Part shown: positions 3,167 through 23,995 of the stretch, in pieces | Layout: each line of letters starts with the position of its first letter | Numbering within the stretch: the first letter of the stretch is position 1 | Source of the DNA: Marinobacter algicola DG893 | GTDB lineage: Bacteria; Pseudomonadota; Gammaproteobacteria; Pseudomonadales; Oleiphilaceae | Length of the DNA: 64,000 nt | Assembly: GCF_000170835.1 (NCBI RefSeq) | Contig: NZ_ABCP01000012.1 | Span: forward strand, 1-64,000 | Direction: 5' to 3' | Notes under the pieces: model-generated | Told to the model about the DNA's origin: nothing | Databases searched by the model: none | The model's input: the letters and a program-made list of their open reading frames with translations, nothing else | Translations under genes and position numbers: made by a program

Positions 3167-4183
3167 GTGAGCAACGGACGGTTGAGTATGCGGGTGGTTG
3201 AACGGATGCTGGCGTGGGGTTTGGCTACGCTGGTGACCGTGGCCATGCCAGCCCGGGCCGAATGGGTGCGTGTGAGCGGCACGGCAATGACCACCGCCAT
3301 CGAGATGGAGTTCTGGTCCGAGGATCCGGCCGTGGCCAGCGAGGCAGGAGATGCGGTGTTGGCTTTGTTTGATCGTATCGACCATCAGATGAGCCGTTAC
3401 CGGGAAGATTCCGAACTGTCCCGGGTTAATCGCGAGGCGGCTGACGGTCCGGTGGAAGTGAGCGACAGTCTTTTTACGGTGCTCCAGCAGGCAAAGCGTA
3501 TTTCAGAATTAAGTAACGGCGCCTTCGACATCAGTTTCGGGTCGATCGGCTACCTGTACGATTTTCGCGCCAGACAACAGCCCTCCGATGAAGAACTGGC
3601 GGAGGGATTGGCAAAGGTGGATTACAAGTCCGTGGTGCTGGACCCCAGCGCCAACACCGTCCGGTTCCTCGATGAAGGCATCAGGCTGGATCTGGGGGGC
3701 ATTGCCAAGGGGTATGCGGTTGATCGCGGTATCGACATCCTTAAGTCCTTCGGCATTCGCCAGGCACGACTGAGCGCCGGCGGTGACCTGAGGCTGCTGG
3801 GTGACAAGCGCGGCAAGCCCTGGATAGTCGGTATCCGGGATCCCCGATCTGAATCACGCAACGCCATGGTTTTGCCACTGACCAACGTGGCTGTGTCGAC
3901 GTCAGGCGATTACGAACGCTTCTTTTTTGACGCTAACCACGAGCGTGTCCATCACATCCTGTCGCCAGCGACCGGCAAACCGGCCAAAGGCGTTCAGAGC
4001 GTGACCATCCTCGGTGACGACAGCATCACAACCGACGGACTGTCCACGGCGGTCTTCGTGCTTGGGGCGGCCAAGGGCCTGGAGATGATAAATGAATTGG
4101 AGGGCATTGACGCCATCATCATTGATGAGCGGCGTCAGGTGCATTATTCGGACGGGCTGATGGCGCCTGAATCTGGCTCATGA
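3167..4183 (+). CDS. apbE: FAD:protein FMN transferase (ApbE)
   Basis: A periplasmic enzyme that moves FMN from FAD onto Thr/Ser of target proteins. Visible ApbE motifs are SRYREDSELSRVN, GAFDISFGSIG, LDLGGIAKGYAVD, SAGGDLRLLG, HHILSPATGKPA and the metal-binding DSITTDGLSTAVF. The N-terminus is a Sec signal ending PARA without a lipobox cysteine. The GTG at 3167 gives 338 residues; the ATG at 3188 gives 331 and is an equally good start. The gene is convergent with the DUF1501-like gene, 25 bases apart, and divergent from the glucosidase gene. From memory of genome neighbourhoods, ApbE, TlpA-like, DUF4266 and DUF3570 genes often sit together; here the other three lie 10 kb to the right. No clear flavinylation substrate is adjacent. 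Confidence 0.92.
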   Translation: MSNGRLSMRVVERMLAWGLATLVTVAMPARAEWVRVSGTAMTTAIEMEFWSEDPAVASEAGDAVLALFDRIDHQMSRYREDSELSRVNREAADGPVEVSDSLFTVLQQAKRISELSNGAFDISFGSIGYLYDFRARQQPSDEELAEGLAKVDYKSVVLDPSANTVRFLDEGIRLDLGGIAKGYAVDRGIDILKSFGIRQARLSAGGDLRLLGDKRGKPWIVGIRDPRSESRNAMVLPLTNVAVSTSGDYERFFFDANHERVHHILSPATGKPAKGVQSVTILGDDSITTDGLSTAVFVLGAAKGLEMINELEGIDAIIIDERRQVHYSDGLMAPESGS

Positions 4184-4208
4184 CACTAAGAGTATGTCGT
4201 GTCTGTTG

Positions 4209-5762
4209 TCAACTGATCGGCTCAATTCCGACCAGCCTGTTGCGACTGGCAGGGTTACCAAGACCATGACCAGCCATGACATTTTCAAACTCTCCTTCTT
4301 GGCCGTTCAGTGCCATGTAGTTCAATACGATTGTCTGAACTAGCTGGTTGACGTTATTGGCAGCGGGGCTTGAGGACGTTTCAACTGATCCATCTGACCG
4401 CATAAAACCTATCTGCTGATTGCGGGCAACTGGTCTACCAGTCGGATTGTAAACTAGGTAAAAAGAGGCAGCGGTTTGTTGGTTGTCACCTGTCCACTCG
4501 CCTTTGCCTCGGCCACCTTGGCTATCATCTATGCGTCCGTTACTTGATACGGAACCATCGCTGAAGACGTAGAGCATGAGCGGAGTCTCGGTACGGTGCG
4601 CATACTCAAGGCAGGCGCCCATACAGCGGCCAGCAAGATAATCTCTGGCCTCGCCGGTCGCACGTTCGCCCGTGTGGTAGTCGTAGCCCCCCAGCGTGAT
4701 AGTACCCGCTCCGGCGTACTGATTCTGAACCAGTTTCATAACAGAGGCTGTCTTCCGAAACTCGCGACCCAGGCGATCATTGGCGAAAAATTCCGCGGTA
4801 CTAAAGATGCCGCTATCTCCGACGATTTTTGTGTCCAGGGACGGGTCGACTGCTGCAGGATTGCCGTACTCCTCGATTAAGTGTGCGCTCTTGATATACC
4901 CGCAATCCACTTGGCTTTTGACCGCTGCATCATTAGCCAGCCCCGTGTTTACAGCGTTCAGGTTGAGTTTGTCCAGACTAATGTTGCGGATGGACTCAAG
5001 CACTGAAACGGCATCTGACTGGCTGAGGATCGACGTGAGATCGCCAACGTCCACAAGGCCTGTCGCATCGGATGGGCGATCAACTTTGGTGGGACGTGCT
5101 TTCGGGTTAATAAGGTTCATCGGTGCCATCGAGTTGCCGCCACTTTCGGAACTCTGTGAGCCCACCAGGGACAGCAGCTCACCGTCAGCACCCGCTTTCA
5201 GAATGCCGTACATTGGGTTGTGCGGATTGTTCCCGGTATCGTTCTCAGAGCGTGCAGCAATAATAGCGCCATTGATAAGCGCTCGGGCGCCGATCGAAGT
5301 GCTGTCCTGCATTCCGCGCAGAAAGCCGCTGTCTGAGTGAAAGGCCAGGCCGAATTCCTGATTGACGAACTGGGGCTGATTGGGAAGCATATCACCGGGC
5401 AAGCCCAGCTTGTTGTAACCGGCAGTACTAAGAAAATCGAGTTGCCCGCCCTGCTTGCCCATCAGTACATTCGATCCGGCGATGTTGGCTCCACCTGCCA
5501 GGTCAAAACAGATGAAAGGCACCTTGCCGCCACCGACCGTTCTGATACCGCATTCCGGTTTCCGGTTTTCCAGCTCTTCTGACAGTGCGTAGGCCGCCTG
5601 GGGAGTAAGCAGGTTAAACAGTGACGCTCCAGATAGGGTGGCAGCCCCGGCCATAAAACCTTGGGCAATAAACTCCCGCCGGGTTTTCGGCCTGGCGTGG
5701 TCTGGGTGAAGCAGGGGCTCTTCAAGCGACAGAGCACTTTTCCGCTGGTTTTTGATAAGCAT
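4209..5762 (-). CDS. Tat-exported DUF1501-like protein
   Basis: 517 residues from the ATG at 5762, which has GAGGA eight bases upstream; a TTG at 5768 is less likely. The N-terminus carries a twin-arginine signal (TRREFI at residues 27-32, then a hydrophobic stretch ending in an Ala-rich site), so the protein is exported folded. The following VPFICFDLAGGANIAG and the overall layout resemble DUF1501, a family placed near the alkaline phosphatase/sulfatase fold, but I cannot identify metal ligands with certainty. It is last in a leftward three-gene run with two haem proteins, only 12 bases after the LamG gene. Planctomycetes pair DUF1501 proteins with cytochrome-domain proteins, which supports the reading. 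Substrate is unknown. Confidence 0.68.
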   Translation of the reverse strand: MLIKNQRKSALSLEEPLLHPDHARPKTRREFIAQGFMAGAATLSGASLFNLLTPQAAYALSEELENRKPECGIRTVGGGKVPFICFDLAGGANIAGSNVLMGKQGGQLDFLSTAGYNKLGLPGDMLPNQPQFVNQEFGLAFHSDSGFLRGMQDSTSIGARALINGAIIAARSENDTGNNPHNPMYGILKAGADGELLSLVGSQSSESGGNSMAPMNLINPKARPTKVDRPSDATGLVDVGDLTSILSQSDAVSVLESIRNISLDKLNLNAVNTGLANDAAVKSQVDCGYIKSAHLIEEYGNPAAVDPSLDTKIVGDSGIFSTAEFFANDRLGREFRKTASVMKLVQNQYAGAGTITLGGYDYHTGERATGEARDYLAGRCMGACLEYAHRTETPLMLYVFSDGSVSSNGRIDDSQGGRGKGEWTGDNQQTAASFYLVYNPTGRPVARNQQIGFMRSDGSVETSSSPAANNVNQLVQTIVLNYMALNGQEGEFENVMAGHGLGNPASRNRLVGIEPIS

Positions 5763-5774
5763 GGTCAACGTCCT

Positions 5775-7118
5775 CTACTGAATCAGTGTCACGGCGCTGC
5801 CGAGAACAGCCGCACAGCTTGCTTTCACAATGGTTTCGGTTCGTCCTTCCTCGCAGTCGCCCGAGCAGCTGGACAGCTTTGTCATCAGAGTACCCAGTTC
5901 GTCTTCGATAGCGACATTGCTCGGCTGGGTATCGAGGTCCTCACCGACAAATCGGGAGAGGAGCGGGCCGGTCACCTGTGCCTGACCCGCGGCATCGAAC
6001 GCAGTGGAGGCGTTTTCGAAAAAGTCGAACCCAGGGAAGAAGGCACTACGACGATCCTGATCGGAGACCAGAACGTCACAATATTGGATGGCCATCTGGG
6101 TGACTGCCATCTGCTGGGAGGACAAGAACCCCTGGATATTTTCAACCGTGGGCAACTGCTGTTTGACCTTGGTAAAGGTGCTCACCACGCCGGGCTCAGT
6201 CACTGGAATACTTGTTACCTTCGACATCGAGGCATTGATCTCGTCGAAGGTTTTTAGTCCGATGATAGAAAATTCCGTGCTACCTGTTGCCGGTGGCAGT
6301 GTTGGAATAGGGCCATCCTCCCTCGGGTCTCCGTAAACTCCGATTTCTTCAAAGGTCAGGAAGAACTGATCGTTTTCCGGGCCTTCCTCCAGCGCGAGAA
6401 CGGTGCCCAGTCTCGACAGTGGCTGGCCGGAACCTGCTACGTAATCACTGGCATTCAGTGTGAGATCCAGGTTGGCGAACGACTGGCCTACCACCACTTC
6501 ACGGCCGTTGATGCCAATTCTCATGCCCTTCAAGGGTATGCCCGATGGCGACTGGGTCTCGTCGAGACTGATGAAGAACGGGTTCGAGAACAGATAGCCG
6601 TAGTTGTCGAACTGGCTGACCTCAAAGACGATAAAACTTTCCGGCATATCTACCAGATGGGAGACGCTGAACAGCAGGAAAAACTTCTGGCCAACGCCCA
6701 CGTCGTAGTTAGCGGCAACCTGCTCTGCGGTGAGGGCGCGGTTGTGGATGGCAAGCATCCTGATGGCGCCTTCCCAGGGAGATTCTCCATCCGTCTCATT
6801 GCCTAGCACCAGGGCGAAGCTATCGTCCCAATCCGTCAGCAGGCCGGCGGAATCCGGGTCGACATCACCGGAGGGCTCGCCATTCACAAAGATCTCGCGA
6901 CCACCGTCCGGTGTAAAGTTCACCACCACGTGCTGCAGGGTCGCCTGCAACAGCATGGGATTGGCTTCGGTCAGCATTGGATCGTTCTGGTCGGTGGTGG
7001 TGCTCCGATGCAGGAACTCGTAGCTCTGCATGTCCTGGCCCAACGTGAAGTTCCGCGCTGTCGAGGAGCCGGAGTAGGTCACGATGCGGGAGTCTTCCTG
7101 GGTGATGTTGCCGGGCAC
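5775..7118 (-). CDS. 3' part of the split gene: LamG core and C-terminal region
   Basis: Continues the LamG domain of the preceding frame (VVVNFTPDGGREIFVNGE and AIRMLAIHNRALTAEQV are typical late LamG strands) and then a 300-residue region I do not recognise. That region has paired cysteines near its end (SSCSGDC) and a segment FLSSQQMAVTQMAIQYCD. There is no ribosome-binding site or signal peptide at the first in-frame methionine-like codon of this part, which argues that it is not translated alone. Coding sense actually extends upstream to the frame break near 7199. Confidence 0.6.
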   Translation of the reverse strand: MPGNITQEDSRIVTYSGSSTARNFTLGQDMQSYEFLHRSTTTDQNDPMLTEANPMLLQATLQHVVVNFTPDGGREIFVNGEPSGDVDPDSAGLLTDWDDSFALVLGNETDGESPWEGAIRMLAIHNRALTAEQVAANYDVGVGQKFFLLFSVSHLVDMPESFIVFEVSQFDNYGYLFSNPFFISLDETQSPSGIPLKGMRIGINGREVVVGQSFANLDLTLNASDYVAGSGQPLSRLGTVLALEEGPENDQFFLTFEEIGVYGDPREDGPIPTLPPATGSTEFSIIGLKTFDEINASMSKVTSIPVTEPGVVSTFTKVKQQLPTVENIQGFLSSQQMAVTQMAIQYCDVLVSDQDRRSAFFPGFDFFENASTAFDAAGQAQVTGPLLSRFVGEDLDTQPSNVAIEDELGTLMTKLSSCSGDCEEGRTETIVKASCAAVLGSAVTLIQ

Positions 7119-7153
7119 AACCCACGCTTCGATGGCGTATTCGCCAGCGGCGG

Positions 7154-8308
7154 TCAGCAGGGTGTGCAGTTTGCGGCTGTCAGCGGTGGAGCTTGAGCCT
7201 TGCCAGCGCGGATCATGTCGCCTTCTTCAGTTTCAAAGGCCGGGCCGATATCAATACCCCAGCCGCCAACCCAGCCAACGTTGCCGCTGAGCGTCAGGTC
7301 CAGAGGTGGGGAAATACCGCTGGTATCAAAGGCCGTTGGGCCTTCGCCTGCTTTGAATTCGTAGAGTGCGATGACGTTGTCTTCGTAGCGGCCGCCGGCA
7401 TTGGCCAGCAGACCGTCGTTGGCGAGGTTCAGTGCCTTGCTGGTCACCAGGTTGGAGGGGATTGGTTCCGGGTCCCCAAGGCGATCAATGAAGGCCTGGA
7501 TTGCGGCCAGCATCTCTGTAGCAGAGTCGAGGCAGTCAGCATCCCAGCAGTTATGGCGGTCGTCTCTCAGCCGCTCTACGAGTCTTGAAGAAGCTTCATC
7601 GGTAAGTATCCATTCATCGGTGACCGGGTCTTTCCCATCGTTCAGATCAATGCGGCTTTTGGACTGATCGTACGCAATGTCGACGTCGGAGCTCGCGATG
7701 TACGGTGTCTGGCCGTTGCTGGTGTGGCAGTCGCTGCAGTATTGGGTCAATACTGGGTAAATGGTGTTTGCAAAGTCGTCGGCGTCCGACGGAAAGGTAA
7801 GTGTGTTGTTCACGTCCTGGATGTTTGGAGCGCGAAGTTCAACCGTTTTAACCGATCCTTCAGAGCCACCCGCCCAGTTGGATATATAGACCGTCAGCAG
7901 GTCGGTACAAGCGGTAACGGACGTAGTCCAACAGTTGTGGCCACCCGCGACCTTGGTGACCATCTCGGACTGGGATGGGTCTGACAGGTTAACGATGGTG
8001 TTGGCCTGGGCGTAGGCAATGTTGATGTCGCCTTCATGCACAAACTGTGGTGACTGGCCGCCGGCGTTGTGGCAGGCGCCGCACTTGTTCTGGCCTGAGA
8101 GCTCATCCCAGACGCTGCGCTTGAAATTCAGCACATCGTCCGTGGCGGGTGCCGGGCCACTATAGCTAACGGTATTGGAGCCGCCGCCGGTGTTCGGAAG
8201 GGCTTCGGTGGATTCGCCACTGTTACAGCCCGCAAGAAAGAGCAGGGCGGCAAAAACGGAGAACAGCGCAGCTGGGGCTCGGGTTCCTTGTCTGATTATG
8301 GTTTTCAT
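7154..8308 (-). CDS. 5' part of the split gene: di-haem c lipoprotein with start of LamG domain
   Basis: 384 residues as it stands. The signal ends in a lipobox LAGC with C28, so the product should be lipid-anchored. There are two related cytochrome-like modules. Each has CXXCH (C76-H80 and C191-H195) followed some 45-75 residues later by an HNCW motif, suggesting duplication and a conserved second ligand or disulphide. The last 70 residues before the frame break begin a LamG jelly-roll. It starts six bases after the mono-haem gene on the same strand, so the two are co-transcribed. Electron transfer in the periplasm or at the surface is an inference from the haem motifs only. Confidence 0.75.
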   Translation of the reverse strand: MKTIIRQGTRAPAALFSVFAALLFLAGCNSGESTEALPNTGGGSNTVSYSGPAPATDDVLNFKRSVWDELSGQNKCGACHNAGGQSPQFVHEGDINIAYAQANTIVNLSDPSQSEMVTKVAGGHNCWTTSVTACTDLLTVYISNWAGGSEGSVKTVELRAPNIQDVNNTLTFPSDADDFANTIYPVLTQYCSDCHTSNGQTPYIASSDVDIAYDQSKSRIDLNDGKDPVTDEWILTDEASSRLVERLRDDRHNCWDADCLDSATEMLAAIQAFIDRLGDPEPIPSNLVTSKALNLANDGLLANAGGRYEDNVIALYEFKAGEGPTAFDTSGISPPLDLTLSGNVGWVGGWGIDIGPAFETEEGDMIRAGKAQAPPLTAANCTPC

Positions 8309-8314
8309 AGTGTC

Positions 8315-9568
8315 CTACTCTCCCCGGCAATACGCGGCAGATTCCGCAAAGGCGGTTTTGAGGTCGTACCCGCTGCGGAAACTCGTAACGATTTCGCTGA
8401 TCTTTGAGCGATCGCTATCGTTGGAAGGCTCTCGCAGGCAGACATTGCGGAATACTTTTTTCACCTGGCACTGGGCAAAGGCGTCGGAATTGGCAAACTC
8501 CCGCCCCAGGCTCTTGGCGCCATTGCCGGAGCCGGGTAGGGAACCATCCCAGCCCAGGCGCCGATTGGTGCCGGACCGCCAGTAGTTGTCCCAGCCATCG
8601 TCCGGCGTCACGTACCCCTGCTCAAACGTGGTTGAATTGATGTGGTACTTGGCAACAACACGGGTGCCCGTCTCCGAGTCCACGTCGCTGACAGAGTTGT
8701 AGATCAGCCTGCCCAGTTCGCCGTCAGGGTCGGTGTCCGCGTTGTACTGGTAGTCGTAGTAGGCAAAGGCCTGGGTCATAGGGTCCATGCCGGTGTGGCA
8801 GCCAACGCAGTTGCTGAGGAATACCCGGCTGTCGCCACCCGGGCTCCGCGACACATCCTGTCGGATGCGGTCCGGTGGCAGGGATACGTCTGCGACCTGC
8901 TCCAGGTCATTGCACATGTGGTTGAGCAGGGTGAAGCGGAACATAGCGCGGTTGGTGCCGGCGCTGAAGAAAGCCCTCGCGGCGGCCCGGGAAGTGATCA
9001 CGCCGGCCGTGGCGCCTGTGGGCAGCTCGGAATTCAAGCTGGACTGCGTGGTTTGTTCCAGCACGTTGTCGTCACTGAGGGAATATCCGGAGCGCTCAAG
9101 GTCCTCATAGTTGTCGTTATTCGATGTTGAATACGCCGAGATACCGCTCAGACTCGAATTACCCACGTAAAGTATGTCGTCATATAAGACGCGTCTAAAA
9201 TCATGATTATCCCGCACAATACCGATGACCGTTGCCGTGTAATCATTCAACGGCACGAACGGGGACATCGCCTCATTTGTCCATGGTGCAACGAAATTTT
9301 TGAGGGTAACATCGTAAAACGCTGGATCTTCCATGGCCGTATAGGCGGCGGAAACGGCGCCTGACGCGCCATTGTTGGTTATATTTGCCGCCATTTGGTC
9401 AAGCACTTCCGGCGAGGGAGGAACACCGGCGATGCGTTCATGGATGCGTTTTGCCTGGTCCCGCGGGCCAGCGCTTGCGATGGTAGCGTGCGTACCGACC
9501 AAAGCCAGCAGGACAGTGAGATAAAATGTCCTCTTTATAAGTTGCCGGGTCGTACATAAGACTGTCAT
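8315..9568 (-). CDS. Exported mono-haem c protein, DUF1592/DUF1588-like
   Basis: 417 residues from the ATG at 9568, which has GAGGG eight bases upstream; an ATG at 9601 would add 11 residues before the signal peptide. A Sec signal ends near ASAGP. One haem motif C254VGC257H258 is followed by TGMDPMTQAFAYYDY. That context, together with the earlier AGVITSRAA and NRAMFRFTLLNHM segments, recalls DUF1592/DUF1588 proteins of Planctomycetes and myxobacteria, where such a cysteine-histidine motif precedes a conserved DP. First gene of a leftward run with the LamG lipoprotein and the DUF1501-like protein. It also contains ELPTGAT at 9008-9028, close to the ApbE flavinylation consensus. Catalytic role unknown. 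Confidence 0.7.
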   Translation of the reverse strand: MTVLCTTRQLIKRTFYLTVLLALVGTHATIASAGPRDQAKRIHERIAGVPPSPEVLDQMAANITNNGASGAVSAAYTAMEDPAFYDVTLKNFVAPWTNEAMSPFVPLNDYTATVIGIVRDNHDFRRVLYDDILYVGNSSLSGISAYSTSNNDNYEDLERSGYSLSDDNVLEQTTQSSLNSELPTGATAGVITSRAAARAFFSAGTNRAMFRFTLLNHMCNDLEQVADVSLPPDRIRQDVSRSPGGDSRVFLSNCVGCHTGMDPMTQAFAYYDYQYNADTDPDGELGRLIYNSVSDVDSETGTRVVAKYHINSTTFEQGYVTPDDGWDNYWRSGTNRRLGWDGSLPGSGNGAKSLGREFANSDAFAQCQVKKVFRNVCLREPSNDSDRSKISEIVTSFRSGYDLKTAFAESAAYCRGE

Positions 9569-9674
9569 GATCGATTCCCTCGATTTCGTTAGCATTCGCA
9601 CATTAGTACCATTTTACAATTGTTCAAAGTCTAGGCGAGCTATTAACGGCGGTTTTGAGTGCTGCTCCACGTTA

Positions 9675-9692
9675 TTACATAGCGTTACGTAA
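9675..9692. promoter_or_regulatory. Palindromic candidate operator between divergent redox units
   Basis: TTACATAGCGTTACGTAA pairs with itself at 7 of 9 positions and lies in the 166-base region between the leftward cytochrome run and the rightward propeller gene. Its placement would allow one regulator to control both directions. I cannot assign a protein family to the site, and no regulator gene is adjacent. No convincing -35/-10 pair was fixed nearby. Confidence 0.35.
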
Positions 9693-9734
9693 AAGGCTTG
9701 GAGCGCAGGCCCCGTCTCGACTTAGCGTATGTAA

Positions 9735-12440
9735 ATGGATTTTCAGGCCAAACAGGGTTTGTTGGTGGTGACTAAACATTACGAAAATAAAATGTTCTCT
9801 TGCGTCAGTGGGTTACGTTGCTATTTCGCTGCCCTGGGCCGTGTATTCGCGCTTCTTCCTGTCGCGCTGGCCGCAGGGTGTCTCCAGAGCGGCGACAGTC
9901 AGTCCAGTGACCCTGTGGTTGTTGAAAATCCCGTTGTCTTTGTAAAACGCCCCTTGCTTTTCGATGAGGACAATGGCGCGCTCCTTGGTGACAACCTTGC
10001 AGAGCCGGCAGAATTTCGTCCCGGCGCTCGCCTGTTCCTGAAGGATCGCGCGTCTCCCGACGCTCCCTCGCGGGATATCACTTCATCCGCTTTCCCGGGG
10101 TCGCTTGGCTATGACGTCAAGGATCTCACCGTCTCCTACGATGGCACTCGCGCGCTCTTTGCCATGAGGGCGCCGGAGATTGAGGACGTGGATGAAGACG
10201 AACAGCCAACCTGGAACATCTGGGAATACGACGTAACCTCCGGCACTCTCCGGCGTGTTATCGAATCGGAAGTCACTGCTGAGGCGGGCCAGGACATCGC
10301 ACCGGCCTACCTGCCTGATGGCCGCATTGTCTTTTCCTCCACCCGGCAAAGGATTTCCCGCGCAATCCTTCTGGATGAAGGGAAACCGCAATATCCCGCG
10401 CTTGACGAAGAGCGTGAGGTTCCCGCTTTTGTCCTGCACGTGATGGATGACGACGGGGAAAACATCGAGCAGATCACGTTCAACCAGAGTCACGATCTGG
10501 ACCCATTGGTAACGGATGAAGGCACCATTGTGTTCAGCAGGTGGGACAACGCCGGCCAGACCCAGGGCAACGGGTTCAACCTCTACAAGGTCAACCCGGA
10601 CGGCACCGGGCTCAGTTATCTTTATGGCCGCCACTCTCATGGCTCTGTCAGCGATGACGTCAACATTGAGTATCTGCGCCCGCAAGCGACGGATTCCGGG
10701 CAATTGCTGGCGCAGCTTCGGCCCACCGAAACCGACAATTTCGGAGCGGTTCCGGTTGAGATTGATGTCGGAAGTTATGTCGAGGCGGGTATACGCGTTG
10801 ACGGCAATTCAGGCTCGGCGCAAACGCCTCTGGTCAGCGGATTGTCCCTGGGCAACGAGATCTCGTTGCGCGGAAACTACAGCTCCGTCTCGCCGTTTTT
10901 GGATGGCACCCGTCGCTACCTCGTTAGCTGGAGTCCATGCCGGCTGAGACTTGCCATTGGCAACGGCGACATCCTCAACTGCACGCAAGAGCGGATTGCC
11001 TCAGGTGCCTATCGGGCCGCCGCCCCGGTTTACGGGCTGTGGTTGCTGGATATGGCATCTGGTACCCAGCGACCCATTCAGCCACCTGAGGAAGGCCAGC
11101 AGTTTGATGAGGCGGTGTTGATGACGGAACGATCGCTGCCGACCTTCATTCCGGAGTCGCAGTTCACTGGGGATGCGGCGACTCTGGCAGAGGATGGTCT
11201 TGGCATACTGCAGATCCAGAGTGTCTACGACATTGATGGTGTTGATGTTTCTCCGGCGGGCATTCGACAGACAGCCGATCCGGCAATCGTTCCTCCGGAC
11301 AACCTTCCCAGGCGCTTCCTCCGACTCGAAAAGCCGGTCTCGATTCCCGATGAAGAGGTCAGGGACTTCGACAACACGGCGTTCGGTCGCAGCCAAGCCC
11401 AGTCCATGCGTGAAATTCTTGGTTATGTACCGGTTGAACCGGACGGTTCGGTACGGGTGGCCGTGCCCGCCAACGTCGCATTTGCCATCAGCGTGGTGGA
11501 CGATGAAGGACGACGGATTGGACCCCGCCACCAGAACTGGTTGAACGTCAGGCCCGGAGAAACCCTGGCGTGCAACGGTTGCCATAATCCGGGAAGTACG
11601 GTGCCCCATGGGCGCCCGGATGCAGGGCCGGCTCCGGTGTACGCGGGTGCGCCGACCACTGGCATTGAATTCCCGAATACCGATCCCGCACTCTTCGCAG
11701 ACATGGGTGAAACCATGGCGGAAACCTGGGCCCGGATTAACGAGACCCGTCGCCTCGGGCCAGACGCTGTCTATGTCGACCAATGGACCGATCCCGGTGA
11801 TGCCAGTCTCACACCGGGCACAGCCTTCTCGCTGAGTTATGCGGACCTTGAAACGCCCGCGCCGGTTACCCCCGAATGCTTTAATGACTGGCGTGGCGCC
11901 TGTCGAACCGTCATTAACTACGAGCAGCATATCCATCCGCTGTGGGGGCTTGAAAGAATCGTTGATGACGGCAACGGCAACGTCGAGGACTACACCTGTA
12001 CCGGATGCCACTCGGATACTGATGCAGCCGATGCGACACAATTGCCGATTGCACAACTGGATCTGAGTGACGGCGCCTCCCCGGATGAGCCCGATCATTT
12101 CAAGTCCTACCGGGAGTTGCTGTTTAACGACAATGAGCAGGAGTTGGTTGGTGATCAGCTCGTTGATGTGCAGGTTGAGTCCGGGGAATTCCTGCGGGAC
12201 GAAGATGGCGAGTTGATTTTGGACGATGACGATAATCCCATCCCCATTCTGGTGAACGTCAATGTGCCTCCCACCATTTCCGTCAATGGAGCCAGGGCCA
12301 GCGGTAACTTCTTCAACCGTTTCCGTGCTGGAGGGAGTCACGAAGACTTTCTAAGCCCTGCCGAGCTGCGCCTCCTGGCCGAATGGCTGGATGTTGGTGG
12401 CCAGTACTACAACAACCCCTTTGATGCTCCGGCGGACTGA
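9735..12440 (+). CDS. HzsA-like di-haem beta-propeller lipoprotein
   Basis: 901 residues from the first ATG. An ATG at 9792 (882 residues) gives a tidier signal that ends in a lipobox AAGC; neither start has a clear ribosome-binding site. Residues about 100-480 hold TolB/PD40-type propeller blades such as LPDGRIVFSSTRQ and DEGTIVFSRWDN. The C-terminal half holds two haem c motifs, C613NGC616H617 and C755TGC758H759, the second after INYEQHIHPLWG. Propeller plus two C-terminal haems is the layout of hydrazine synthase alpha subunit and its many HzsA-related homologues. No beta or gamma subunit gene is present, so hydrazine synthesis should not be inferred. Divergent from the cytochrome run and 20 bases before the SH3-barrel gene. 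Confidence 0.78.
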   Translation: MDFQAKQGLLVVTKHYENKMFSCVSGLRCYFAALGRVFALLPVALAAGCLQSGDSQSSDPVVVENPVVFVKRPLLFDEDNGALLGDNLAEPAEFRPGARLFLKDRASPDAPSRDITSSAFPGSLGYDVKDLTVSYDGTRALFAMRAPEIEDVDEDEQPTWNIWEYDVTSGTLRRVIESEVTAEAGQDIAPAYLPDGRIVFSSTRQRISRAILLDEGKPQYPALDEEREVPAFVLHVMDDDGENIEQITFNQSHDLDPLVTDEGTIVFSRWDNAGQTQGNGFNLYKVNPDGTGLSYLYGRHSHGSVSDDVNIEYLRPQATDSGQLLAQLRPTETDNFGAVPVEIDVGSYVEAGIRVDGNSGSAQTPLVSGLSLGNEISLRGNYSSVSPFLDGTRRYLVSWSPCRLRLAIGNGDILNCTQERIASGAYRAAAPVYGLWLLDMASGTQRPIQPPEEGQQFDEAVLMTERSLPTFIPESQFTGDAATLAEDGLGILQIQSVYDIDGVDVSPAGIRQTADPAIVPPDNLPRRFLRLEKPVSIPDEEVRDFDNTAFGRSQAQSMREILGYVPVEPDGSVRVAVPANVAFAISVVDDEGRRIGPRHQNWLNVRPGETLACNGCHNPGSTVPHGRPDAGPAPVYAGAPTTGIEFPNTDPALFADMGETMAETWARINETRRLGPDAVYVDQWTDPGDASLTPGTAFSLSYADLETPAPVTPECFNDWRGACRTVINYEQHIHPLWGLERIVDDGNGNVEDYTCTGCHSDTDAADATQLPIAQLDLSDGASPDEPDHFKSYRELLFNDNEQELVGDQLVDVQVESGEFLRDEDGELILDDDDNPIPILVNVNVPPTISVNGARASGNFFNRFRAGGSHEDFLSPAELRLLAEWLDVGGQYYNNPFDAPAD

Positions 12441-12460: not shown

Positions 12461-13213
12461 ATGAGACTGGCCCTGATACTGCTGTTTTTAACCGCGCCCC
12501 TGTCCGCTACCGCCGACTGGCTGTGGGGCGGTGCCGACGAGCCCATGCCCCAGGTTCAGGTGGCGGAACCGTTTGTGGAGTGGCGCACCGGGCCGGCCGT
12601 GGGCTATCCGGTGTTCCATACCAGTGAAAAGGGTGAGTGGCTGACCTTGCGCATGCGCAAGACCTCCTGGCTGAAGGTCACCGACCGAAAGGGGCGAGAA
12701 GGCTGGGTGCACATAGACGATGTGCAGCTGACACTGGACGGCGAGGGTGAACAGGTCTCACTCACCAATCCACGTTTTGACGACTTCAGCAGCCGCAGCT
12801 GGGAAGCTGGGTTGATGATGGGCGAATTCGAGGGTGCGGCGGTGACCGCCATTTACGGTGGCTATCTTATGACCCGTAATCTGTCGGCAGAGCTCTGGGG
12901 CTCTCAGGTGTTGGGAAGTGCTTCGGAGATTCGCATGGTGAACGCCAACATCGTGCACCAGCCGTTTCCGCACTGGCGGATTTCACCGTTCTTCACGCTG
13001 GGTGTGGGGCATATTTTCATCGAGCCCAAAGCCACCCTGGCGGACCCCGGCGACCGGGACAACAGTATCGGGCACGCCGGCTTTGGTGTGCGCGCCTACG
13101 TCACGGACAACTATTTTATCCGTGCCGAGGTCAAGGACTACAAGATTTTTACCAATCGGGCAACCAACGAAGAAGCAACAGAATGGAAAATCGGATTAAG
13201 CATATTCTTCTGA
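12461..13213 (+). CDS. SH3b domain plus outer-membrane beta-barrel protein
   Basis: 250 residues. A Sec signal (residues 1-19) is followed by a bacterial SH3 domain at about 35-90 (VEWRTGPAVGYPVFHT to GREGWVHIDDV) and then a small barrel of alternating polar and hydrophobic strands ending in Phe-Phe, the usual C-terminal signal for the BAM complex. The SH3b part could bind peptidoglycan or a partner protein. The architecture matches, as far as I recall, small outer-membrane proteins seen near AgmX-type genes (family TIGR04565). First gene of the long rightward array; its last 31 bases overlap the start of the next barrel gene, implying coupled translation. Confidence 0.75.
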   Translation: MRLALILLFLTAPLSATADWLWGGADEPMPQVQVAEPFVEWRTGPAVGYPVFHTSEKGEWLTLRMRKTSWLKVTDRKGREGWVHIDDVQLTLDGEGEQVSLTNPRFDDFSSRSWEAGLMMGEFEGAAVTAIYGGYLMTRNLSAELWGSQVLGSASEIRMVNANIVHQPFPHWRISPFFTLGVGHIFIEPKATLADPGDRDNSIGHAGFGVRAYVTDNYFIRAEVKDYKIFTNRATNEEATEWKIGLSIFF

Positions 13214-13830
13214 CCGTCCTGCCGTTTGCGGGCCTGCTGCTGGTGTCTACGGCTGTCAGCGCCCAGGAGGACGACCGGCCACTGATTGAGCCGGATGTGC
13301 GGCCCCAGAAGGTCGACGAGGCGTTGATCGACACCGAGAATTTCGAGATCGGTGCGTTTGCCGGCATCCTCAATATCGAGGATTTTGAGTCATCGTTCCT
13401 GTGGGGCGGCAAGCTGACCTACCACCTCAGCGAAACCTTCTTCTTTGAAGCCAATGTGGGGTTTGCGGAAGGCGGAGAAACCAGTTTCGAAAAGCTGGCC
13501 GGGGACGTTCAGGTGTTGTCGGACGAAGACCGGGACTACCGCTACTACAACATCAATATTGGCATGAATGTGCTGCCCGGTGAGGCCTTCCTGACTGAGA
13601 ACTACGCCTTCAATACCAACTTCTACCTGATCGGCGGGGCCGGTGCCACGGACTTTGCCGGTGACACCCGTTTTACCGTCAACGTGGGCGCTGGTTACCA
13701 GGTATTGCTGACCGACAGCGTATCGATCCATCTGGGGGTTCGTGAACACTTCTACCGGATTGATGTGCTGGGTGAGGAAAAAACGTCCATGAACACCGAG
13801 GTCAGCGGTGGCCTCACTGTCTTTTTCTGA
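13183..13830 (+). CDS. Small outer-membrane beta-barrel protein
   Basis: 215 residues with a Sec signal ending VSAQ. After an acidic linker (residues 25-50) the protein consists of beta-hairpin-like segments such as FEIGAFAGILNIEDF and FFFEANVGFAEGG, ending in TVFF, a BAM-type terminal aromatic. It looks like a companion to the preceding SH3-barrel protein and belongs to the same general outer-membrane barrel group. The start codon lies 31 bases inside the previous gene, whose terminal codons therefore encode part of this signal peptide in another frame. I do not know a substrate; a structural or anchoring role in the proposed trans-envelope complex is inferred. Confidence 0.75.
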   Translation: MENRIKHILLTVLPFAGLLLVSTAVSAQEDDRPLIEPDVRPQKVDEALIDTENFEIGAFAGILNIEDFESSFLWGGKLTYHLSETFFFEANVGFAEGGETSFEKLAGDVQVLSDEDRDYRYYNINIGMNVLPGEAFLTENYAFNTNFYLIGGAGATDFAGDTRFTVNVGAGYQVLLTDSVSIHLGVREHFYRIDVLGEEKTSMNTEVSGGLTVFF

Positions 13831-13842
13831 TAACAGGAGTCA

Positions 13843-14343
13843 ATGATGACAACACGGTTTTTGGGATTGGCCCTGACCCTGGCCACGCTGGTAGGCGTTT
13901 CATCCGTTCAGGCCGAGGAAATGAACATTCCGGCGCCGGACTTCACTCTTGAAAGCCGTCAGGGCGAGAACCTGCGGCTACAGGATTTTCGTGGCGAAGT
14001 GGTGATGCTCAACTTCTGGGCGTCCTGGTGCGGGCCCTGTCGTCAGGAAATGCCGTTGATGGACGACCTGTACGCTCAGTATAAGGATCTCGGTTTCACC
14101 ATCCTGGCGGTCAACGTTGACGAGAACCGCGACGAAGCGCACCGCTTCCTGGACAAGGTGCCGGTCAGCTATCCGATCCTTTATGACCCGCAGAGCGATG
14201 TCAGCGAACAGTATGAAGTGCAGGCTATGCCGACCACGGTCATGATTGACCGCGATGGCAATGCCCGTTTTCTCCACCATGGCTACCAGCCCGGCTATGA
14301 AGACGAATACGAAACGCAGATCCGGCAACTGGTGCGGGAATAG
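13843..14343 (+). CDS. TlpA/ResA-like periplasmic thioredoxin
   Basis: 166 residues. A Sec signal ends near VQAEE and is followed by an AhpC/TSA-Redoxin fold with the active site W62-C63-G-P-C66 and the cis-proline context AMPTTVMID. The insert NVDENRDEAHRFL is typical of TlpA/ResA proteins. It should act as a periplasmic thiol reductant or oxidase on partner proteins, for example haem-binding cysteines or the cysteine-rich tail of the DUF4266 lipoprotein encoded next. Reducing power could come from the DsbD encoded at 52.9-54.8 kb. AGGAG lies just upstream of two successive ATG codons; the second (13846) has the better spacing. Confidence 0.88.
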   Translation: MMTTRFLGLALTLATLVGVSSVQAEEMNIPAPDFTLESRQGENLRLQDFRGEVVMLNFWASWCGPCRQEMPLMDDLYAQYKDLGFTILAVNVDENRDEAHRFLDKVPVSYPILYDPQSDVSEQYEVQAMPTTVMIDRDGNARFLHHGYQPGYEDEYETQIRQLVRE

Positions 14344-14361
14344 CCTGAGGCAGGTGAGTGT

Positions 14362-14601
14362 ATGAACCCTTTCAAAGCAGTGATGGCATCGGCAATCGTG
14401 ATCCTCATGACGGCGGGGGCTACCGGGTGTAGCGACATCAAGCCCTGGGTGAAGCCCTATGAGCGCGACAAGCTCGCAGACCCGGTGATGAGCCTGAGCC
14501 GGCATGGAAAGGCTGACTCCTATATGCACCACGTTTACCAGGCTCGCGAATCCGCACGGGGGTCGGAAGGCGGCTCCGGAGGTGGTTGTGGCTGTAACTG
14601 A
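14362..14601 (+). CDS. DUF4266 mini-lipoprotein with Gly-Cys tail
   Basis: 79 residues. A short signal ends ATGC, giving a lipid-anchored mature chain of about 57 residues. The core KPYERDKLADPVMS and HVYQARESARG is the DUF4266 signature as I know it, and the protein ends in SGGGCGCN. Two vicinal-type cysteines in a glycine tail suggest metal binding, disulphide exchange with the adjacent TlpA-like protein or a modification site. The last codons contain GGAGG, which appears to be the ribosome-binding site of the overlapping DUF3570 gene. Easily missed because of its size, but its coding is well supported by the family match and by spacing to both neighbours. Confidence 0.85.
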   Translation: MNPFKAVMASAIVILMTAGATGCSDIKPWVKPYERDKLADPVMSLSRHGKADSYMHHVYQARESARGSEGGSGGGCGCN

Positions 14602-15751
14602 TCGCGCCGGGTTTTTATCGGCCCTGGTAACGGGCCTGGTGGGCTGGCTGTTGTTCGGTCAACTCGTCACGGCTGCCACCCTGCCGCAGGATAACGTGGA
14701 TATCCTTTACCACCGTTATGAAGGCGGCGGTATGGTTATTGATGGTCCTTCCGTGCTGGTGCGCAAGAGCGCAGGCCCACAGGTGTCTGTGTCAGGCCAG
14801 TATTACGTGGATATGGTGTCTGCGGCTTCGGTGGATGTCCTTGCCACGGCCAGTGAATACACCGAAGAGCGCACTGAATACACTCTCGGGGTGGACTATC
14901 TACATGAGGATGCGATCCTGAGCCTTGGTTACACCAATAGCTCGGAGAACGACTACGAGGCCAACACGGTATATTTCTCTACCAGCCAGGAATTCTTTGG
15001 TGGCATGTCGACCGTGACCCTCGGTTATGCTCGAGGTTGGGATGACGTCGGCGTGGCAGGCAATGATGCCTTCAATGAAGAGGCAGATCGCCAGAACTAT
15101 CAACTGGGGCTTAGCCAGGTAGTCACCCGTAACAGTCTTCTGGGGCTGGACCTGGAAGTGGTGACCGATGAAGGCTTCCTACAGAATCCGTACCGACAGA
15201 ATCGCTATATCGACCCCAATGATCCGACGGACTTCCTATACCAGCCCGAACGATACCCGGAAACCCGCACCAGTTTCTCCGTGGCCACCCGCGCCCTGTA
15301 TTACCTGCCATACCGGGCATCGATTCGCGGTGAGTTCCGCTATTTCAGTGACAGCTGGGGCATTGACGCCCAAACCTTCGAGCTCGCTTACGTTCACGCC
15401 CTGAATCCTCGCTGGACGCTTGAGGGACGTGCCCGGTACTACGTCCAGGACGAGGCGGATTTCTACAGCGACCTCTACGCCTTCGAAAACTCCCAGACCC
15501 ACCTGGCGCGCGACAAGGAAATGAGTGCGTTTTCCGGCACTACCCTCGGTGGCGGCGTGGTGTACGAGTGGAAACAGACTTCGTTGCCGGGCATTCAGCG
15601 CCTGCAGGCGAGTCTCCTGGTGGACTGGCTCGATTTCAGCTATGACAACTTCCGGGATGTCACTGCGTCCGGCGACTTCCTGCCGGGACAGGAGCCGCTT
15701 TATTCGTTCGATGCCTTTGTAACCCGGGCATCGCTGATTCTTGAATACTGA
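14588..15751 (+). CDS. DUF3570 outer-membrane protein
   Basis: 387 residues from a GTG at 14588, five bases after GGAGG and overlapping the DUF4266 gene by 14 bases. Longer readings from 14504 would add a non-signal extension. A Sec signal ends VTAAT. The rest is a run of amphipathic beta strands (VSVSGQYYVDMVSAASVDV, YTLGVDYLHEDAILSLGYT) that ends LILEY, consistent with an outer-membrane barrel. DUF3570 proteins regularly accompany DUF4266 lipoproteins, and the overlap here shows tight coupling. Function is not known; export, anchoring or display of the mini-lipoprotein is a reasonable guess. Confidence 0.83.
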   Translation: MAVTDRAGFLSALVTGLVGWLLFGQLVTAATLPQDNVDILYHRYEGGGMVIDGPSVLVRKSAGPQVSVSGQYYVDMVSAASVDVLATASEYTEERTEYTLGVDYLHEDAILSLGYTNSSENDYEANTVYFSTSQEFFGGMSTVTLGYARGWDDVGVAGNDAFNEEADRQNYQLGLSQVVTRNSLLGLDLEVVTDEGFLQNPYRQNRYIDPNDPTDFLYQPERYPETRTSFSVATRALYYLPYRASIRGEFRYFSDSWGIDAQTFELAYVHALNPRWTLEGRARYYVQDEADFYSDLYAFENSQTHLARDKEMSAFSGTTLGGGVVYEWKQTSLPGIQRLQASLLVDWLDFSYDNFRDVTASGDFLPGQEPLYSFDAFVTRASLILEY

Positions 15752-15771
15752 CCGAGTCGGGACGATTCATC

Positions 15772-16323
15772 ATGATGACCCTGAAGAACACATTTGCACT
15801 GCACGTTGCCAGCCTGGCATTAGCGCTCTGGCTGCCGACGGCAACCGCCCAGGACAATGGCGAATCCGGGACAGACGACGGCGCCGTGGCCCTGAGCGTT
15901 GAAGAGCTGAAGAAGCAGGTGATCCGTCTGAACCGGGACCTGTTCATTCTGGAAGAGGACCTGCTGTATCCCGCCAGTACCCAGTTTGCGGTGTTTCTCA
16001 GTCTCGACACCGGCGAATTCCTCAAGCTGGATTCGGTGAAGCTCAAGGTCAATGACGAAACCGTTGCAGCGTACCTGTATACCGAGCGCCAGGCCAAGGC
16101 CCTGCAGCGTGGCGGTATGCAGCGCCTGCACATCGGCAACCTCAAGACGGGCGAACACGAGGTGACGGTGTTTGTTGAGGGTATTGGCCCGGATAACCGA
16201 GCCTACAAGCAGGCCGCGACTTATCAACTGCAGAAGGATACGGATACCGCCGCCCTGGAAGTCCGTATCCGCGACCGCTCATCCGATTACCAGCCCGAAG
16301 TGGCCATTGTTGAGTGGGAGTAA
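15772..16323 (+). CDS. Periplasmic protein with N-terminal coiled coil, unknown function
   Basis: 183 residues. A Sec signal ends near ATAQD, followed by a helical segment (VEELKKQVIRLNRDLFILEEDLLYP, residues about 42-66) likely to form a coiled coil. Then comes a beta-rich part that resembles an immunoglobulin-like fold, with KLDSVKLKVNDETVAAYLY and TGEHEVTVFVEGIG. I do not recognise a named family. It sits 20 bases after the DUF3570 gene and overlaps the next TPR gene's longer reading, so it belongs to the same transcript. A periplasmic linker in the proposed machine is inferred from position only. Confidence 0.72.
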   Translation: MMTLKNTFALHVASLALALWLPTATAQDNGESGTDDGAVALSVEELKKQVIRLNRDLFILEEDLLYPASTQFAVFLSLDTGEFLKLDSVKLKVNDETVAAYLYTERQAKALQRGGMQRLHIGNLKTGEHEVTVFVEGIGPDNRAYKQAATYQLQKDTDTAALEVRIRDRSSDYQPEVAIVEWE

Positions 16324-16331
16324 CGCGGCCT

Positions 16332-18371
16332 GTGATTGAGTGGCTGAACCGAATAACGGCAGGTACACCGGCTGGACTGGCTCTTACCGGTGCGCTTGCT
16401 GCGTTGCTTCACGGTCCGGTGGCTGTGGGTGATGAACTGCCGCAGCGCGCCAATGATCCTGCCTATGGTGTGGCCCTGTACGAGTATTACCAGGGCAATG
16501 CGTTTGAGGCGCTGACCCGCCTCAACGTGGCCGCAGCGGAAGGTGGCATCGATGGCCATGGCGACCATCCGGCCCTCGTGGAGGGCGGCCTGCTGCTGTC
16601 CTACGGCATGACTCAGGAAGCCGGTGCGCTGTTCCGGGCGTTACTGGACGAAGACGCAGCGGTGGCGCCGGGCACCCGTAACCAGGCCTGGTTCTATCTG
16701 GGCAAGGTGTTCTACCTGGAGCAGGATCCTGCCGCGGCACGAGATGCCCTTGAGCGGGTGGATGACGAGTTGTTGCAGGACGAAAGCGACGAGCTTTACC
16801 ACGAGTGGCTGTACCTTAGGGGTCAACTGGCCTTGGCCGGAACGGCGCCGGCCAATGGGGAAAGCGTTGACGAACTGATCGATGCGCTGCCGGAGAGTTC
16901 TCCCTGGCGGGCCTACCTGCAATACAATCAGGCGGTTGGCCGGCTGGCAGAGGGCCAGACGGAAACCGCGATGGCCGATCTTGCCAGCCTTGATGACCTG
17001 GTTGACGAACTGATTAGGGAGCAGCCTGAAGTCGAGCCACCGTTGGCCAATGAAATGTCTGCGCTCCGCGAACGGGTAAAACTTTCAATGGGCCGGCTTC
17101 ACCTCAGTAAGGGCGACTTTGCAGGCGCGATGGCCAGCCTTGAACAGATTGCCCTGGATGGCGTGTTTTCCGACGAGGCGCTGTTTGACTACGCGGTTGC
17201 CGCCTCCCGCGAGGGCAAAGCGGGTTTGGCGTTGCAAGCGTTGAATACTCTTCAGCAACGCCCCCTGTTTACACCCTGGCTGCAGCAGGTGCCCTATGCC
17301 CGTGGCTTCCTGTTCGAGCAGATGGGGCGCCAGCAGCAGGCGCTCCAGGCGTACCGTGAGGCTGCCAGCCATTACCAGTCTCTGAACACCCGCCTGTCGA
17401 ATGAGCGGGAGCAGCTGACCGAAGCGCAATTGGTCGACGCCCTTCGCTTTGGGCGTGAGGGTGATAGCCCGGGACAGGCCGGGTCGATGGACCCGGCACT
17501 GGCGCGTCCCGAACCGGGAGCGCCAACCGTGCTGACCGATGCCTATGGACGCGTGAAGGTCAGGCCCGAGGATTACAGCCTGGCTGGTCTGTTAGCGACC
17601 GAGCGCTTTCAACTTTCCCTGCGTGATCTGCACGAACTCTATCGATTGCAGGATTCCCTTGGCCAGTGGCAGAAGCAATTGGAATCCTTCGATATCATGC
17701 TGGCAACCCGTGCCCAGCAGCGGGAACAACGTATTCGCGAGACCCGCGACGCACTAGAGGCGCTCAACGCAGATCAATGGCTGGCGCGGCAGGCTGAGTA
17801 CCGCAGCGCTATCGAAGACGCATTGGCCAGGGAAGACCTGCGCTTTTTCATGACGCAGGAACAGCATGAACTGGCGGACCGACTGGCGCAGGTGGAGCAG
17901 ACCCTGTCGCAACTACCGAATGATGAATCCACTCGCCAACAGCGAGAGACCTTCCAGCGGATGAAGGCGTACTTCAACTGGCGCCTTGCCGATGATTACG
18001 CGGTCAATCGTTGGGCTGCCGAAAAGCAGCTGCGGGAACTGGACCAGGCCATGGATGTGTTCGTTGATCAGCGCGCACTGATTGAACAGGAGATGGCATC
18101 GGGTGGCGAGAACCAGGCCCTGGCTGCCCGGGTAGCGGCCCGCCAGGCCGCGTTGCAACGATTGCAGGGCGAGGTGAACAAGGCGCTCTCGGCAGCACGC
18201 ACGGAACTGCTCACCCTGGTGGATGCTGAACTTCTGCAACAGAGCCAGGAAGTGCAGGGGTACCTCAGGGCAACCCGTCATGCAGCGGCAAGATTGGCTG
18301 ACACGCTGTTCCTTGGTCGCAATGGTGCGACGGTAAGCCCGGCTCCCGAAGCGGGAGGTGACCGTGACTGA
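16332..18371 (+). CDS. Large exported TPR and coiled-coil protein
   Basis: About 679 residues from the GTG at 16332; a GTG at 16314, overlapping the previous stop, would add six residues and has no ribosome-binding site. An N-terminal hydrophobic segment looks like a signal or anchor (ALTGALAALLHGPVAVG). Residues about 40-370 carry degenerate tetratricopeptide-like helical pairs (NQAWFYLGKVFYLEQDPAAARDALE). Residues about 450-680 are long charged helices likely to be coiled coil. No lipobox cysteine. It overlaps the next TPR gene by 8 bases. The closest analogy I can offer is the large periplasmic TPR proteins of Myxococcus gliding complexes; sequence-level homology is unproven. Confidence 0.75.
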   Translation: MIEWLNRITAGTPAGLALTGALAALLHGPVAVGDELPQRANDPAYGVALYEYYQGNAFEALTRLNVAAAEGGIDGHGDHPALVEGGLLLSYGMTQEAGALFRALLDEDAAVAPGTRNQAWFYLGKVFYLEQDPAAARDALERVDDELLQDESDELYHEWLYLRGQLALAGTAPANGESVDELIDALPESSPWRAYLQYNQAVGRLAEGQTETAMADLASLDDLVDELIREQPEVEPPLANEMSALRERVKLSMGRLHLSKGDFAGAMASLEQIALDGVFSDEALFDYAVAASREGKAGLALQALNTLQQRPLFTPWLQQVPYARGFLFEQMGRQQQALQAYREAASHYQSLNTRLSNEREQLTEAQLVDALRFGREGDSPGQAGSMDPALARPEPGAPTVLTDAYGRVKVRPEDYSLAGLLATERFQLSLRDLHELYRLQDSLGQWQKQLESFDIMLATRAQQREQRIRETRDALEALNADQWLARQAEYRSAIEDALAREDLRFFMTQEQHELADRLAQVEQTLSQLPNDESTRQQRETFQRMKAYFNWRLADDYAVNRWAAEKQLRELDQAMDVFVDQRALIEQEMASGGENQALAARVAARQAALQRLQGEVNKALSAARTELLTLVDAELLQQSQEVQGYLRATRHAAARLADTLFLGRNGATVSPAPEAGGDRD

Positions 18372-22131: not shown

Positions 22132-22266
22132 GAACTGCGTCACACAATTTTTGTGCACATACGCATGTAAAAACAAACCGCTACAAAGACTTGCGCGAAC
22201 TTACCCCTGCCGGGGCGGTTGCCGCATACACTAGCCTGCAAACACGGACTATGGAGTGCCCTGAAA

Positions 22267-22974: not shown

Positions 22975-22998
22975 CGGTTCAATCAGGGAGCTAAAGCC

Positions 22999-23993: not shown

Positions 23994-23995
23994 CT

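Follow-up and report, generated by a model that had tools for sequence, protein, structure and literature searches.

A co-inherited Marinobacter locus of exported haem proteins, flavin/thiol partners and an Agl/Glt-type motor, tentatively read as one envelope machine

At 3167-24991, the window (a stretch of 64,000 nucleotides from Marinobacter algicola DG893) harbours a locus some 22 kb long that, with a probability of roughly 0.4, encodes a single envelope machine, in which the genes of a haem block (4209-12440, one part of the locus) would provide the surface-facing redox part. Across Marinobacter and numerous marine relatives, the haem set, a flavin/thiol electron-relay set and a motor of the myxobacterial gliding type are inherited together as a unit, a pattern suggestive of a motor-coupled redox machine in the envelope. 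The modules are already known one by one; no earlier report of their combination was found in open-access journal papers. Since the Agl/Glt core, the DUF3570 system and the haem proteins share one co-inherited locus, the core and the DUF3570 system each gain a candidate partner and the question becomes testable, gene deletion being possible in Marinobacter, which is cultivable and harmless.

Exported haem proteins encoded back to back at 4209-12440 had been proposed by a sequence-only reading of this DNA, and the open reading frames, export signals and haem motifs bear this out. Four exported proteins are encoded. Those on the minus strand are an exported mono-haem DUF1588/DUF1585-like protein (8315-9601), a di-haem LamG lipoprotein (5775-8308; PF13385, 4.4e-15) and a Tat-exported, distantly DUF1501-like protein (4209-5768); the plus strand encodes a di-haem HZS-alpha-like beta-propeller lipoprotein (9735-12440, with a possible alternative start at 9792). 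Export is signalled by a twin-arginine sequence (TRREFIAQGF) and by lipoboxes (LAGC and LAAGC). The five CXXCH motifs lie at residue 265 of the DUF1585/1588-like protein, 76 and 191 of the LamG lipoprotein and 613 and 755 of the propeller lipoprotein; shuffled block proteins carried a mean of 0.009 such motifs in all and a maximum of one (5,000 shuffles). As a four-gene set the proposed block holds, but its limits are too narrow, as an ApbE gene (3167-4183) and the genes from SH3 to GltG (12461-24991) also belong to the locus. The latter follow the HZS alpha gene in operon-like packing, beginning 20 bp past its end; the spacing between neighbouring genes, from HZS alpha as far as GltG, lies between -98 and +87 bp.

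The propeller lipoprotein contains the HzsA middle domain (PF18582, 7.4e-16; 58.9 bits against a cut-off of 26.6), and it matches the HzsA structure 5c2v at 1.4e-15, collinearly along three stretches. Its propeller, PF18582 and C-terminal haem domain follow one another as they do in HzsA (PDB 5C2V) and the planctomycete relatives of the latter (PMC12758564). The bis-His ligands of haem alpha-II are retained, both being invariant; H869, present in 29/29 homologues, aligns to chain residue 745, which is the distal His772 of this haem. It differs from HzsA in being a gammaproteobacterial lipoprotein that lacks an equivalent of Tyr591 (the proximal residue of haem alpha-I, at H+4), this position being Ser in 27/29 homologues and otherwise Thr or Ala. 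On sequence comparison, the protein is an HZS alpha relative without the catalytic tyrosine. Nitrogen chemistry, i.e., the making or use of hydrazine, hydroxylamine or NO, would accord with PF18582 and the homology to HzsA along the chain; nevertheless, it is highly improbable in view of the near-invariant Ser at H+4, a score of 55.5 bits against a cut-off of 800 for the NCBIfam HZS alpha equivalog (NF052339) and the fact that no beta or gamma partner subunit was seen in the locus. Hydrazine synthesis in particular was rejected because the tyrosine is lacking and the equivalog score falls below its cut-off. The placement of a large HZS-alpha family in Gammaproteobacteria bears on the origin of the anammox enzyme.

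Family assignments for the minus-strand proteins had to be revised in part. Membership of DUF1501, which the earlier reading had put as a likeness, was rejected for the Tat-exported protein: PF07394 was above its cut-off in 0/30 homologues and nowhere in the genome itself, no Pfam family matched any of the 30, and comparison with true DUF1501 gave an hhalign probability of only 6%. A PDB sequence search with the family profile returned zero matches. The predicted structure aligns with 7mw8 (Z 12.2, rmsd 4.4, 222 residues), pointing to a predicted fold of the alkaline-phosphatase/sulfatase superfamily, and a GG(Y)DYH motif is common to this protein and DUF1501 (general form GG(W/Y)DxH). The twin-arginine pair R30-R31 is unchanged across the 30 homologues, and a profile search of a Pseudomonadota sample found the family in Gammaproteobacteria only. 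As for the supposed DUF1592/1588-like protein, the DUF1592 part was rejected, with no match in 29 homologues, and the DUF1588 part stands weakly (18/29); DUF1585 was matched in 27/29 (best 2.1e-6). The protein of the window itself scores 15.8 bits, below the domain cut-off of 25.8, and a PDB search with the profile gave chance matches to haem motifs or LIM only. A CxGCHxGMDP motif is invariant among the homologues, and by profile and motif the protein is a relative of DUF1588/DUF1585 (PSCyt3/PSD2). The suggested planctomycete-like parts list thus survives as a distant resemblance of fold and domain and not beyond that: the planctomycete DUF1501/PSD-PSCyt pairs likewise combine an alkaline-phosphatase-like fold, GG(W/Y)DxH and a DUF1585/1588-type haem neighbour, but their TDH motif, curated DUF1501 match and DUF1592 part were all not found here.

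Four genes of the locus constitute a recognised cluster, namely ApbE, DUF3570, a thioredoxin-like protein and DUF4266 (Meheust et al. 2021, PMC8238504). ApbE, the FAD:protein FMN transferase for periplasmic flavinylation (3167-4183, plus strand; PF02424, 6.8e-84), has a homologue adjoining the block in roughly half of the loci from relatives. The others lie on the plus strand beyond an SH3 plus small outer-membrane barrel protein (12461-13213; PF06347, 4.6e-6; PF13505 and TIGR04565 weak) and an outer-membrane beta-barrel protein of the OMP_myx_plus family (13183-13830; TIGR04565, 1.7e-44). They are an exported ResA/TlpA-type thiol-disulfide oxidoreductase with WCGPC (13843-14343; PF08534, 7.1e-31; ResA subfamily model 9.9e-39, under the model's cut-off), a DUF4266 lipoprotein (14362-14601; PF14086, 1.6e-22) and a DUF3570 outer-membrane barrel, the putative ApbE substrate (14504-15751; PF12094, 1.7e-35), which probably starts at about 14582. 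The predicted DUF3570 structure is a barrel of 16-17 strands (pLDDT 82) with barrel matches in the PDB. Flavinylation of a DUF3570 protein by ApbE has been established experimentally, covalent FMN having been demonstrated for Chlorobium luteolum only, and electron transfer based on DUF3570 was left uncertain by the same study (PMC8238504). As in these clusters, the C-terminal CXC of DUF4266 is strictly retained, in the form GGGCGCN in almost every one of 74 loci from relatives. The present locus differs by its added haem proteins and motor, the absence of an identifiable inner-membrane electron donor such as DsbD, and its motif sites, which read SAAS and ATAS instead of the two [S/T]GA[S/T] flavinylation motifs; relatives have S[AS]AS or, in some cases, SGAS at the first site and xTAS at the second. 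The ResA/TlpA-type protein may also simply serve cytochrome maturation. These flavin/thiol partners had no place in the sequence-only reading.

The remaining plus-strand genes form an Agl/Glt-type motor array. It comprises a conserved exported protein without family (15772-16323), a conserved TPR-type protein (16314-18371), a large TPR lipoprotein (18358-21231) and a small conserved exported protein (21814-22131), the last two assigned to the core complex, together with a GltE-like TPR lipoprotein (21212-21817; NF033758, 1.9e-11 and 43.6 bits, under the equivalog cut-off of 225). One MotA/TolQ/ExbB-type (AglR) proton-channel subunit (22219-22974; PF01618, 1.8e-28) is accompanied by two AglQ/AglS (ExbD/TolR-type) subunits (22999-23496 and 23493-23993; PF02472, 1.2e-15 and 2.0e-17), and a TonB-like transducer with the GltG/AgmX/PglI C-terminal domain (23996-24991; NF033768, 1.2e-18, 67 bits against a cut-off of 40) closes the array. 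An AglRQS-type motor, a GltG/AgmX-type transducer and clustered TPR lipoproteins are likewise features of the Agl/Glt core in the excerpted text of Luciano et al. 2011 (PMC3169522), where Marinobacter is already listed with duplicated clusters to which no function was assigned; the same study left the core outside Myxococcus without a known function. No redox genes (HZS-alpha, DUF3570, ApbE or others) accompany the core in that text, and the present locus showed none of the Group A genes of Myxococcus.

A link among the four block genes, as previously suggested, and with the adjacent motor array is supported by gene order and co-inheritance. The DUF1501-like, LamG and DUF1585-like genes, divergent from HZS alpha, SH3, outer-membrane protein, thioredoxin and DUF3570, keep this order in the majority of 80 named loci from Gammaproteobacteria (about 70-80), with the DUF4266 gene also in 74 loci. 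Close homologues of the DUF1501-like protein, HZS alpha, DUF3570 and the large TPR protein are all present in 15/37 Marinobacter genomes and all absent from 22/37. Among 232 gammaproteobacterial genomes spanning many families, and with shared ancestry not corrected for, 33/34 of those with HZS alpha also have DUF3570 (Fisher p 2e-22) and 32/34 the AgmX/GltG motor (p 2e-22), and 28 genomes share HZS alpha (34) and the DUF1501-like protein (32; p 4e-26). Pairwise-distance correlations between the gene families (0.72-0.98) cannot separate co-evolution from species history and are therefore not counted as evidence. A neighbourhood due to chance or vertical inheritance only, with haem block and motor functionally unlinked, would account for motor clusters without haem genes, including a second cluster of this genome; it is nevertheless improbable given the all-or-none pattern in Marinobacter, a second, independent arrangement with a divergent HZS alpha copy directly 3' of GltG (the paralogous clusters concerned belong to five other Marinobacter genomes and to one additional family) and a disrupted HZS alpha gene in a genome without the motor. 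The DUF1501-like, LamG and DUF1585-like genes are absent from four otherwise complete loci (L138, L140, L143 and L144) and are therefore regarded as accessory.

In the machine proposed here, the proton-driven motor, the GltG-like transducer and a TPR scaffold would span the periplasm. ApbE would attach flavins to the DUF3570 barrel, and the ResA/TlpA-type protein and the DUF4266 CXC lipoprotein would exchange electrons with the bound flavins. The outer end would consist of the HZS-alpha-like lipoprotein and, where present, the LamG, DUF1588/1585-like and phosphatase/sulfatase-fold proteins, and would bind or act on a glycopolymer, either at the surface or extracellular. The sequences establish the families of the proteins, their haem motifs and export signals, the operon-like packing, the conserved order and the joint presence or absence of the genes. 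We infer the path and direction of the electrons, the surface location, the motor coupling and the substrate; the block may perform extracellular oxidation or electron exchange, as the earlier reading had supposed. That the locus represents a new class of envelope machine, with an AglRQS-type motor mechanically coupled to a trans-outer-membrane flavin/haem relay so that surface redox and motion or transport are interdependent, is a speculative extension; if true, the coupled machine would give the gammaproteobacterial Agl/Glt core complex its missing role.

The strongest competitor, less favoured than the single envelope machine, is a motor whose task is to move a polymer or adhesin at the surface, or to assemble it, as Nfs does for the Myxococcus spore coat, with no electrons passing across the outer membrane. 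The redox proteins would then only form or check disulfides, attach haem and serve as structural lectin or enzyme parts of that surface layer. Such a role suits the ResA/TlpA-type gene beside genes of CXXCH proteins, the hint of glycans from the LamG and phosphatase/sulfatase-fold proteins and, in Myxococcus, the driving of gliding or spore-coat assembly by the Agl/Glt core (PMC3169522, PMC3858216); it leaves unexplained the five haem sites and the retention of ApbE, DUF3570 and DUF4266 with HZS alpha. Energised uptake of the Ton/Tol kind is unlikely; here the motor would open a barrel (DUF3570 or a different one), and a metal complex or a polymer fragment, once reduced or hydrolysed at the surface, would be imported. 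Although the ExbB/ExbD/TonB-like parts and 25 cases of DUF3570 clustered with VIT1 iron transporters (PMC8238504) are compatible with it, no TonB-dependent receptor of the plug type, no siderophore gene and no metal permease was seen among the genes of 3.1-25 kb, and the region upstream of HZS alpha lacks a good match to a Fur box.

The earlier description of a di-haem LamG lipoprotein stands for the domain and the two haem motifs and fails for a single open frame in the window, the gene being broken near 7.2 kb by one frameshift into ORFs 7154-8308 and 5775-7118; relatives have one uninterrupted ORF of about 840 aa. A scan for consensus sigma-70 promoters yielded nothing exceeding chance. The divergent intergenic region (9602-9734, no strand) contains conserved non-coding islands, with blocks conserved in at least 90% of 34 Marinobacter/Hahella loci, and is likely a shared control region of the divergent genes.

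The sequence-only reading had described four exported proteins with five CXXCH motifs in all, and these are genuine, the motif count being far above chance. The propeller lipoprotein (9735-12440, + strand) matched the middle domain of hydrazine synthase alpha (HZS alpha; PF18582, 7.4e-16). A profile built from 29 homologues aligned this protein to HzsA (PDB 5C2V) over three collinear stretches (1.4e-15). The invariant H869 falls on chain residue 745, which is His772 because the CXXCH histidine His587 is chain residue 560, and thus corresponds to the distal ligand of haem alpha-II. In contrast, the position of haem-I Tyr591 in HzsA is occupied by Ser in 27/29 homologues.

The remaining members of the block, all on the minus strand, fit their earlier labels in part. 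Judged by domain searches of 29 homologues, the mono-haem protein (8315-9601) is a DUF1588/DUF1585 relative, with DUF1585 detected in 27 (best 2.1e-6) and DUF1588 in 18 (best 0.03); DUF1592, the other half of its former label, was matched in none. The Tat-exported protein (4209-5768), described as DUF1501-like, has the GG(Y)DYH of true DUF1501 proteins without their TDH motif; profile comparison with them was weak, and none of 30 homologues gave a Pfam match above chance level. Its predicted model (pLDDT 78) resembles phosphodiesterases, alkaline phosphatases and sulfatases, with Z 12.2 and an rmsd of 4.4 A over 222 residues. The LamG lipoprotein (5775-8308; PF13385, 4.4e-15), taken to be a single di-haem gene, is one intact ORF of ~840 aa in relatives, whereas a frameshift near 7.2 kb splits it in the window; the break may be real or an assembly error. 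The genome (4.41 Mb in 104 contigs) has M. salarius and M. iranensis as its nearest named relatives. Across 4000-6500 (the D1501-like gene and the 3' part of LamG), nucleotide identity to M. salarius-like relatives is only 66-78%, against mostly 88-96% on both flanks (M. salarius), and part of the stretch is nearer to M. confluentis; this dip looks like allelic replacement by recombination. In the divergent intergenic region 9602-9734, non-coding islands resembling ACAATTGTTCAAAGTCT and GTTACGTAAAAG are conserved over 34 loci.

Directly downstream of HZS alpha (12461-15751, + strand) lie genes for an SH3-barrel protein, followed within the same set by an OMP_myx_plus barrel (TIGR04565, 1.7e-44), a ResA/TlpA-type thioredoxin, a DUF4266 lipoprotein (14362-14601; PF14086, 1.6e-22) and a DUF3570 protein (PF12094, 1.7e-35), while ApbE (3167-4183, + strand; 6.8e-84) stands on the other side of the haem block. 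ApbE, DUF3570, thioredoxin-like and DUF4266 genes together make up an already recognised type of cluster, and flavinylation of a DUF3570 protein by ApbE has been demonstrated experimentally for Chlorobium luteolum (PMC8238504). The extreme C-terminal GGGCGCN of the DUF4266 lipoprotein, the same in nearly all of 74 loci from many families, suggests a metal site or modified tail. The DUF3570 protein is modelled as an outer-membrane barrel (pLDDT 82, many barrel matches), with motif serines 109 and 117 in the inter-strand loop 106-120, which would be periplasmic by strand count back from the C-terminus; the strict [S/T]GA[S/T] motif is absent from the window protein, which has SAAS and ATAS instead.

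Among the following genes (15772-24991, + strand) are those for one ExbB/TolQ-type and two ExbD/TolR-type subunits, for TPR lipoproteins, of which one is GltE-like but scores below its cut-off, and for a GltG/AgmX C-terminal transducer that exceeds its own. This set resembles the Agl/Glt core complex, which was described from gammaproteobacteria, Marinobacter included, as having no assigned function (PMC3169522). From HZS alpha through GltG, all genes share one strand with intergenic gaps of -98 to +87 bp, which makes a single transcript likely.

Gene order is kept in most of 80 named gammaproteobacterial loci (Marinobacter, Hahella, Kangiellaceae, Alteromonadaceae, Porticoccus, Simiduia, Chromatiaceae MAGs and others), where many gaps in it fall at contig ends; one locus (L101) is a genuine exception. 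Close homologues of the D1501-like protein, HZS alpha, DUF3570 and the large TPR protein occur in the same 15 of 37 Marinobacter genomes and are absent from the same 22. Among 232 genomes sampled across Gammaproteobacteria, with AgmX counted only over its cut-off, the counts are 32 for the D1501-like protein, 34 for HZS alpha, 60 for DUF3570 and 54 for AgmX. HZS alpha is accompanied by DUF3570 in 33 of its genomes and by AgmX in 32; the D1501-like protein shares 28 genomes with HZS alpha and 29 with AgmX. Furthermore, four loci (L138, L140, L143, L144) have the motor, the DUF3570 set and HZS alpha, and lack the D1501-LamG-DUF1585 set. This nested co-occurrence points to the motor, the DUF3570 set and HZS alpha as the core and to the D1501-LamG-DUF1585 set as accessory. 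Further observations hint independently that HZS alpha goes with the motor. In five Marinobacter genomes that lack the block, and in a genome from another family, a divergent HZS alpha directly follows GltG in a paralogous motor cluster. A genome (G088) that carries the D1501 set, with neither DUF3570 nor AgmX, has its HZS alpha gene broken by a repeated insert. The proteins after GltG (L111-L115, L118) are ~980 aa long. The G088 insert, present as several short coding-like copies ending ...TVLRTLRNHLFAALHNSLSDSTPT (L137:3435-5255), is perhaps a small mobile element.

The most economical reading of the locus is a redox relay tied to the motor. The thiol protein and DUF4266 would form its periplasmic end, flavins carried by the DUF3570 barrel its flavin part and the HZS alpha and LamG lipoproteins its haem part, the relay being coupled to a proton-driven motor complex. 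Lipoproteins without Asp at position +2 generally reach the outer membrane; none of the lipoproteins here has it, and an outer-membrane location fits. The chief alternative is a machine for a surface polymer or adhesin, whose redox proteins would serve maturation only. Each module is already known on its own, and no earlier report of their union was found in openly searchable papers; there is a modest chance that the motor-tied relay represents a new class of machine.

The same genome encodes a second Agl/Glt-type core complex without HZS alpha (G000:C102, L145:6291-19243 and L146). Ahead of it are a MoxR-type AAA ATPase and VWA/CoxE proteins; shortly after it come AMP-binding and ketoacyl-synthase III genes, which resemble an olefin (ole) cluster.
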